From contig CP114561.1 of assembly GCA_028865235.1 (NCBI GenBank), positions 702,001-766,000 of the forward strand: 64,000 nt of DNA, written 5' to 3'. Shown in pieces: positions 23,432 to 25,401 of this stretch. The notes under the pieces were generated by a model. That model did not search any database. It was not told the DNA's origin and saw only the letters and a list, made by a program, of their open reading frames with translations. The translations under genes and the position numbers were made by a program. The stretch's first letter is position 1, and every line of letters begins with the position of its first letter. This DNA is from Candidatus Manganitrophus sp. Lineage in GTDB: Bacteria; Nitrospirota; Nitrospiria; SBBL01; Manganitrophaceae.

Positions 23432-24832
23432 TCAGTCGCGATGATCTTTGTCGCCGTTTGGATGATCATGGTCGTCTACATGCGGCTTCTTTTTTGGGGA
23501 GTCGCTCATCTTGGAAGGGGCCGGCTTGGCCGGCGCCGGATCGTGGGGGTGATCCTCTTCCTCTCCGTCGTGGTGGTCGGCCTCCTCCGGATGATCGTGA
23601 TCGTCCACATGAGGCTTCCTTTCAGAGGGGCTCCCCATCTGAGAGGCACCCCCCTCTGGTGCGGCGGGATCGTGGGAATGATCCTCCTCCTCATGGGGAT
23701 GATCGCCTTCGTCGTGGTGGTCCCCCTCCTCTCCCATGACCGCTCCCTCCTCCTCATGGGTATGCCCTTCATGCTCCTGCGCGGGCACGGCCCATCCGTA
23801 GATAGTGAGAGCAATCAAGGAGAGGCCGAAGAGGGCGCCGAGGCTCAAGATTCCTTTGCGGGCTCCCAAGCGCCGTTCCTGCCCGCGATCCAACAAGGGA
23901 ACCAACGCCAAGAAGCCGAAGAGAATCATCGTGATGTAGAGAACGGCGCCGACCCCCCAGATATTCTCGAACAGATACATCCAGAGGAACGGCCAGGGGG
24001 GCTTGACCGGATCTCCATGCCCGGAGGGGGCCTCTCCGAGCGGCGCGCGAACAAAAACGGCCATCAGCGCCAGGAACCCGTAATAAGCGACGGAGAGAAG
24101 AAGGATGCTCCGAGCGTGATCGCTGAACCGGCCTTTGACCTCCTGCGCCGGCACTTCCGGCGCATTCGACCATTTCCCCCAGGGGGTGGGGGCCAGGTTG
24201 AAAATGTGGATCAGGTAGAAATGCCCCATCAAAAGAAGAACGATCAGGACCGGGTAGACGGCGATATGCGACACATAAATCCGCAGGTTCATCGGGCTGC
24301 TTCCGGGCCAATCGGTCATCACCGCGCCGACCGGACCGAGCATCCGCAACAGGCCCTTCAAATGACTCAGCGCATCGGCTCCCTCCTGATCCCATTTCAG
24401 GACCGTTCCGGAGAAGTACGAGCCCATCAACATGACCCCGAGAAGGGCGACGCCGATCCACCAGGTGACCTGGCGCGGATGTTTGTAGGCGCCGGTGATG
24501 AAGACCCGGGTGGTATGAAGGATGAGAGCGAAGATCACCCCCTGCGCAAACCAATAATGAAGCGCGCGAAGATAACTCGCCCAGTTGATCCGTTGAATTT
24601 GCTCTAAGCTCTTGTAGGCTTGTTGAGGAAGGGGGTTATAGAGCTGCGCCAGGGTGAAACCGGTGAGGACCATCAGAACAAAGCCGATAAAGGCGACCCC
24701 GCCGAAAGTATAAAGCGCGGAGCGGCCATGCTCGGGGACGGGAAAATCGAGATGCCTTAGTCCGAGCCAGGTGTCGAGCCGTCCCCACCGAGAGGGCTCC
24801 GTCGCTGATTTTCCCGAGGCTGGCGAGGAGAT
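23432..24832 (-). CDS. b6-type cytochrome b with long His-rich C-terminal tail; start codon apparently ATC
   Basis: This is the membrane quinol-oxidising subunit of a bc/b6f-type complex, 466 residues. Two haem-ligand pairs are visible: LRALHYWFAQG with ALILHTTRV in helix B, and VSHIAVYPV with LMGHFYLIHIF in helix D. The N-terminal TM is GGVAFIGFVLMVLTGF. A subunit-IV-like part follows (about 240-350). The last 114 residues (353-466) are hydrophilic with 20 His and two copies of KPHVDDHDHP. The frame has no ATG, GTG or TTG before VLMVLTGF. The best start is ATC at 24832, seven bases after GGAGG; otherwise an ATG was misread. A [2Fe-2S] ferredoxin gene precedes it. Confidence 0.8.
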   Translation of the reverse strand: MSSPASGKSATEPSRWGRLDTWLGLRHLDFPVPEHGRSALYTFGGVAFIGFVLMVLTGFTLAQLYNPLPQQAYKSLEQIQRINWASYLRALHYWFAQGVIFALILHTTRVFITGAYKHPRQVTWWIGVALLGVMLMGSYFSGTVLKWDQEGADALSHLKGLLRMLGPVGAVMTDWPGSSPMNLRIYVSHIAVYPVLIVLLLMGHFYLIHIFNLAPTPWGKWSNAPEVPAQEVKGRFSDHARSILLLSVAYYGFLALMAVFVRAPLGEAPSGHGDPVKPPWPFLWMYLFENIWGVGAVLYITMILFGFLALVPLLDRGQERRLGARKGILSLGALFGLSLIALTIYGWAVPAQEHEGHTHEEEGAVMGEEGDHHDEGDHPHEEEDHSHDPAAPEGGASQMGSPSERKPHVDDHDHPEEADHHDGEEEDHPHDPAPAKPAPSKMSDSPKKKPHVDDHDHPNGDKDHRD

Positions 24833-24885
24833 GACTTTTCCTCCAAATAGAGAGTGGGAATAAGGGATCGGATGATGACGAATTT

Positions 24886-25401
24886 TTATTCTGCTTCAAA
24901 GATCCGCTTCACCAGAGCGGCGAGTTGATCAGGATCGCTTGCGACCGCCTCAACCTCTTTCTTTGCATCCGCCACAAAAGGAATCGCCGTATCGGGGAGG
25001 ATCGCGGAGAGCCCTTGCAGCCTGGCCCGCTTCTCCACCATCATTCGGATGATTTCTCGTACAGCGGGGTCGAGCGCATCCAGCTCCCGGAGGGCCCCGC
25101 GGCTCCACTCCATCTCCTGATCCGGAACACGGACGACAACGTCCCCCCTAATCTTCGCCTGGCAGGAGAGCCGAAACGGCGCGGTCAGTTGGGCCTCCTC
25201 GAGCATATTCTCTTCATCCAGATCGATCTCCGTCAGATTCGTCATCCCCTCCACCACCCAAATCCGGCAGGTGCTGCAGGTCGCAAAACCGCCGCAGTCG
25301 TGCCGCATCTGAAGACCGAGCTTTTCAGCTGCGTCGAGGAGGCTGGTTCCGTCCGGAATCTCTCCACTTTTCCCGTATGGATAAAAGGTAACCTTAGACA
25401 T
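24886..25401 (-). CDS. [2Fe-2S] ferredoxin with C-terminal PCP_red-like domain
   Basis: This 171-residue protein has an N-terminal plant-type or adrenodoxin-like ferredoxin domain with the cluster ligands in HDCGGFATCSTC and the later RLSCQAKI. The C-terminal part (about 100-150: ALRELDALDPAVREIIRMMV and EKRARLQGLSAIL) resembles the PCP_red helix domain found at the end of protochlorophyllide-reductase B subunits and in some ferredoxins. The last 20 residues are acidic. It is encoded immediately upstream of the cytochrome b gene and could carry electrons to or from it. Confidence 0.8.
   Translation of the reverse strand: MSKVTFYPYGKSGEIPDGTSLLDAAEKLGLQMRHDCGGFATCSTCRIWVVEGMTNLTEIDLDEENMLEEAQLTAPFRLSCQAKIRGDVVVRVPDQEMEWSRGALRELDALDPAVREIIRMMVEKRARLQGLSAILPDTAIPFVADAKKEVEAVASDPDQLAALVKRIFEAE

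Follow-up and report, generated by a model that had tools for sequence, protein, structure and literature searches.

The window analysed here, a stretch of 64,000 nucleotides from a Candidatus Manganitrophus genome, carries on its minus strand a cytochrome b gene (23432..24832) that matches the Pfam families Cytochrome_B and Cytochrom_B_N_2 and whose product has seven transmembrane helices by both hydropathy and AF2 modelling. Foldseek matches the model to bc1 cytochrome b (probability 1.00, TM-score about 0.55), and solved cytochrome b6 is matched by sequence at an E-value of 6e-38. Past the last helix the protein continues into a His/Asp/Glu-rich C-terminal tail of 114 residues, 20 of them His (23435..23776, minus strand; residues 353-466), with a mean AF2 pLDDT of about 40, from which disorder is predicted. 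A short, strongly basic loop joins helices 6 and 7. Known cytochromes b have a cytoplasmic N-terminus; taken together with the seven helices and the charge pattern, this would place the tail on the periplasmic side, in agreement with an earlier note on this DNA that had put it on one membrane face.

The 5' end of the gene is less conventional. The minus-strand frame ending at 23432 is open as far as 24895 (487 codons), and within it no in-frame ATG, GTG or TTG lies upstream of 24673. The ATG listed there falls within helix 1, so the true start must be further upstream. DNA alignment of five congeners reveals a GGAGG ribosome-binding site in the window (24840..24844, minus strand) and GGAGG-like sites in the others, followed after 5 to 8 bases by ATC in two of the five and ATT in three (window 24830-24832, which has ATC; L031, L032, L033, L034); non-triplet differences directly upstream of these codons suggest that the DNA there is probably non-coding. 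The non-canonical ATC/ATT codon is thus probably the real start, giving a gene of 466 codons from 24832 to the stop at 23432. Alternative starts are also seen, namely an in-frame TTG overlapping the GGAGG in G003, which is in one genus group with the window's genome, and an upstream ATG in G004.

Directly upstream lies a gene for a 2Fe-2S ferredoxin of 171 aa with no sign of export (24886..25401, minus strand; Pfam Fer2, with ferredoxins and putidaredoxins as PDB matches). The pair is retained wherever the cytochrome b occurs in the order, and the ferredoxin is a possible partner of the cytochrome. An obligate partnership is ruled out, as the order's genomes carry the ferredoxin gene in 18/18 cases and about half of them have no cytochrome b; there its usual neighbour is a DUF3105-like gene. 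The ferredoxin, which has a conserved C-terminal extension, is present throughout the order (window 24886-25401, L107-L114), and a DUF3105-like gene often follows it, as checked with Pfam in L035. In G008 (L037:822-5905), two large genes that look by eye to encode ion-pumping subunits of NuoL/MrpD type precede the ferredoxin and cytochrome b. The window's remaining neighbours are a cold-shock protein gene and guaB, with metal genes absent, and most relatives in the class are likewise situated outside metal gene clusters.

Haem ligands, quinol site and Rieske genes

The four b-haem ligands H92, H106, H189 and H204 (span 24221..24559, minus strand) are found at the canonical spacings of 14 and 15. 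These H-x13-H and H-x14-H pairs, on helices B and D, are kept in all 24 family members and all 16 paralogues compared, a pattern by which the protein is assigned two bis-His b-haem sites. The quinol (Qo) side, by contrast with that of the paralogues, is altered. PPWP (23990..24001, minus strand) stands in place of the PEWY motif; P(P/L)W occurs in 24/24 family members, all of which have lost the PEWY Glu, whereas the aligned paralogues that span the region keep PEWY or PEWF. In the p-side cd region of the same site, His157 (24362..24364, minus strand) is present in 24/24 family members versus 0/16 paralogues, and the aligned residue in the solved cytochrome b6 is Ile. Its position corresponds to that of a bc1 residue in contact with Qo inhibitors. 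Further family-specific His residues are His239 and His35, the latter in 23/24 members. Judged by these alignments, the core defines a distinct cytochrome b family with an altered quinol site.

This family is readily set against its better-known counterparts. It resembles PetB/PetD (cytochrome b6/subunit IV) and bc1 cytochrome b (PF00033, PF13631) in fold, in the four haem ligands at 14/15, in the seven helices and in a WDQ motif, and it differs from them in lacking a Rieske partner and the PEWY Glu and in having the extra His157, His239 and His354 as well as a His-rich periplasmic tail. The best NCBIfam match for the core is to ExtP/ExtQ of the Geobacter selenite/tellurite reduction operon (NF040969, NF040970); the core scores 123 bits against the ExtP family (NF040969), under its cut-off of 290. 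The Ext cluster includes a Rieske protein, ExtO, together with multihaem cytochromes (PMC5877670), and its ExtP and ExtQ are split, unlike the window protein. Where cytochrome b6 has its haem c_i Cys (YCLGG), the family members at L038, L041, L042, L043, L045 and L059 also have Cys, and the protein encoded in the window has Thr.

In none of 17 genomes (the window's genome and 16 relatives) is a Rieske gene next to the tailed gene. A search of the window's genome found six Rieske domains, three of bc type and three of small soluble types, and each of the three bc-type genes sits beside one of the three other cytochromes b; in the relatives, bc-type Rieske genes are nearly all paired with other cytochromes b, three doubtful cases (G008, G020, G023) aside. 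The best reading of this gene arrangement is that the tailed cytochrome b is an orphan without a Rieske partner of its own. A family relative in G154 is untailed and has a Rieske gene beside it, yet carries both H157 and PPW, so these two features alone do not signify the absence of a Rieske protein. The G154 relative, the bc1/b6 fold and the Rieske proteins of other complexes within the same cells would all suit an ordinary bc/b6f-type quinol oxidase that uses a Rieske protein encoded elsewhere, with the tail as an accessory. Such an enzyme seems very unlikely to us given the changes at the Qo motif and its surroundings, the lack of an adjacent Rieske gene in 17/17 genomes and the commitment of all bc-type Rieske genes in the window's genome, and nearly all in relatives, to positions beside another cytochrome b.

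Composition, spread and conservation of the tail

Counts at 23435-23776 substantiate what the earlier note had described, a 114-residue tail with 20 His after the last helix. With the last residue of the final helix as the starting point, the segment comprises 118 aa with 37 Asp+Glu and neither Cys nor aromatic residues; assuming 3% His, the binomial chance of at least 20 His is about 4e-10. The duplication proposed in the same note also holds. Module 1 (47 aa, 23588..23728) and module 2 (42 aa, 23459..23584), both on the minus strand and both ending in KPHVDDHDHP, align with 27 identities and a score of 145, far above shuffled sequences (32 +/- 11, maximum 71 in 500 shuffles). Immediately past helix 7 is a P-x-Q-x-H-x-x-H motif (23762..23785, minus strand), the first His of which, H354, is retained in 24/24 family members, untailed ones included, and H357 is present in every tailed one. 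An apparent H354 in the paralogues, as output by the aligner, was rejected: it is the His of the paralogue CxxCH and no true match.

The family is present in 17 of 270 genomes of the Nitrospirota class and in 10 of 296 genomes drawn from the phylum, and a collection-wide scan, limited by its strict patterns, recovered only 11 loci. All 18 complete copies from the 17 genomes of the class bear a His-rich tail of 23-117 aa containing 15-25% His, versus 2.5-4% in the core (computed for nine copies). Ordinary cytochromes b do lack such a tail, as the earlier note had stated, but all close relatives carry one. We also considered a tail private to Mn oxidisers; this is ruled out by its occurrence across three groups of the class. 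In a tree of the core, obtained from a short tree search, all tailed copies form one clade (SH-aLRT 97). Untailed relatives, from Geoglobus, two further Nitrospirota and three plasmids of actinobacteria, end 0-3 residues past the His equivalent to H354. Most simply, then, the tail grew out of a conserved periplasmic His and was gained once.

Although length and sequence of the tail differ between genera, as would be expected of a neutral low-complexity extension, several observations oppose that explanation. Between G000, G005, G002 and G003, dN/dS is 0.10-0.22 for the tail versus 0.08-0.14 for the core, with synonymous change near saturation at the larger distances. His is found in all four genomes at 18 of the 23 tail columns that have His in any, and retention is much poorer for Ser, Ala, Gly and Pro. 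His retention stands out against seven other residue types pooled (Fisher p=4e-4) and against Asp/Glu (p=0.04), p values that are rough because tail columns are not independent. The tail is under purifying selection, and His is its best-kept residue type. With a tail in every copy as well, neutral extension is largely ruled out and we regard it as scarcely credible; the relatives do not present the neutral low-complexity sequence that the earlier note had named as grounds for dismissing its proposal.

A different role for the tail is that of a docking arm, in which an acidic, flexible segment recruits a cytochrome c, a multicopper oxidase or a Rieske protein electrostatically and the His are secondary. 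The strongly acidic composition and predicted disorder of the tail would agree with this, as would the Nitrospirota cytochromes b encoded as paralogues in the same genomes. These likewise have seven helices and an extra part at the same periplasmic end; in them it is a fused cytochrome c domain (CxxCH) rather than a His tail, and they keep PEWY and have an adjacent Rieske gene. A cytochrome c fused at this place past helix 7 marks that side as an exit or entry for electrons. Nevertheless, it is His and not Asp/Glu that is best conserved in the tail, and we consider docking as its main role decidedly unlikely.

Candidate metal chemistry at the periplasmic face

From its composition, we think it quite likely that the tail binds metal ions. 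Copper is the first candidate among these, and Met-rich stretches such as GMPGMKDM, found in several relatives, would suit it. The gene neighbourhoods of some relatives also feature copper. A second, shorter-tailed copy in G005 lies directly after a Csp1-like copper storage gene; this copper island (L047:6622-14260) holds the Csp1-like protein, the second cytochrome b, a CopA multicopper oxidase (854 bits) and CopB, and G003 has a fragment of this island too. Relatives on the Streptomyces plasmids pI and pFRL4 are located between heavy-metal P-type ATPases. The actinobacterial plasmid members (L084, L085, L086) are untailed and have a gene for a small membrane-anchored hypothetical protein just upstream. 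The copper-island copy has the shortest tail of all, 23 aa with 4 His, so that the link with copper attaches to the family and not to the tail. Such copper settings are few and do not include the longest tails.

The same short tail weakens the idea of copper storage, and metal storage by the tail, which the earlier note had offered beside metal binding, does not find support given the range of tail lengths. It would be central to a scheme in which the tail serves as a metal buffer only, chelating periplasmic metal for storage or protection with the cytochrome as a mere anchor and no electron transfer. Twenty His, 37 acidic residues, no Cys and a variable length are what one could expect of a generic chelator; however, the tail is confined to this one cytochrome b family, its point of origin is an invariant His next to the quinol pocket, and it is at its shortest in the very copy that sits among copper-resistance genes. 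A pure buffer is in our estimation unlikely. Rather, the separate family, the missing Rieske partner and the altered quinol site point to electron transfer with metal instead of storage.

We propose, tentatively and at somewhat less than even confidence, a Rieske-free cytochrome b that exchanges electrons with periplasmic metal gathered by its tail; redox coupling of the cytochrome to metal, taken by itself, we hold with the same reserve. The protein would be an inner-membrane orphan cytochrome b whose first four helices hold two b haems and whose three further helices bring the C-terminus into the periplasm. Its periplasmic quinol pocket would be remodelled by loss of the PEWY Glu, addition of H157 and placement of the invariant H354 just past the last helix, and in the Nitrospirota class this H354 anchor would have grown into a disordered, selected arm rich in His, Asp, Glu and in some cases Met. 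The arm may bind divalent or cuprous metal and so gather periplasmic ions beside haem bL, where electrons could be exchanged between the quinone pool or the cytoplasmic 2Fe-2S ferredoxin and the metal. The protein might then act as a metal reductase, with reduction of Cu(II) to Cu(I) the preferred case, or in the reverse direction. In a bolder variant, to which we give little prospect, H157, H354 and the tail together hold a metal ion that substitutes at the quinol pocket for the Rieske cluster, in a metal-dependent bc reaction; in Manganitrophus, electrons released by periplasmic metal oxidation could enter the quinone pool by this route.

Partial parallels to the proposed electron exchange exist. 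The CYBDOM/cytochrome b561 metalloreductase HYP1 uses trans-membrane b haems to reduce metal outside (PMC10784544), although such proteins are eukaryotic and of the unrelated b561 fold, making the analogy functional only. In an archaeal Geoglobus MAG (L059:154-2049), a DOMON protein gene lies directly ahead of the untailed family member. RcnA-type metal transporters are likewise membrane proteins with an enlarged His-rich stretch, as seen in the expanded His-rich loop of RcnA in cable bacteria (PMC11247825); RcnA is a transporter with a cytoplasmic loop, whereas the window protein would be a redox protein with a periplasmic tail. Nothing describing the family and its tail was found in the open-access literature, and the passages on cytochrome b, histidine and copper found in the Manganitrophus comparative genomics study (PMC9040806) do not discuss this protein. 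The cytochrome b fold itself is known. The finding bears on how Manganitrophus-type bacteria move electrons, and if the proposed reading is true, a Rieske-less cytochrome b with a metal-binding arm at its changed quinol side would represent a new coupling of the quinone pool to periplasmic metal.
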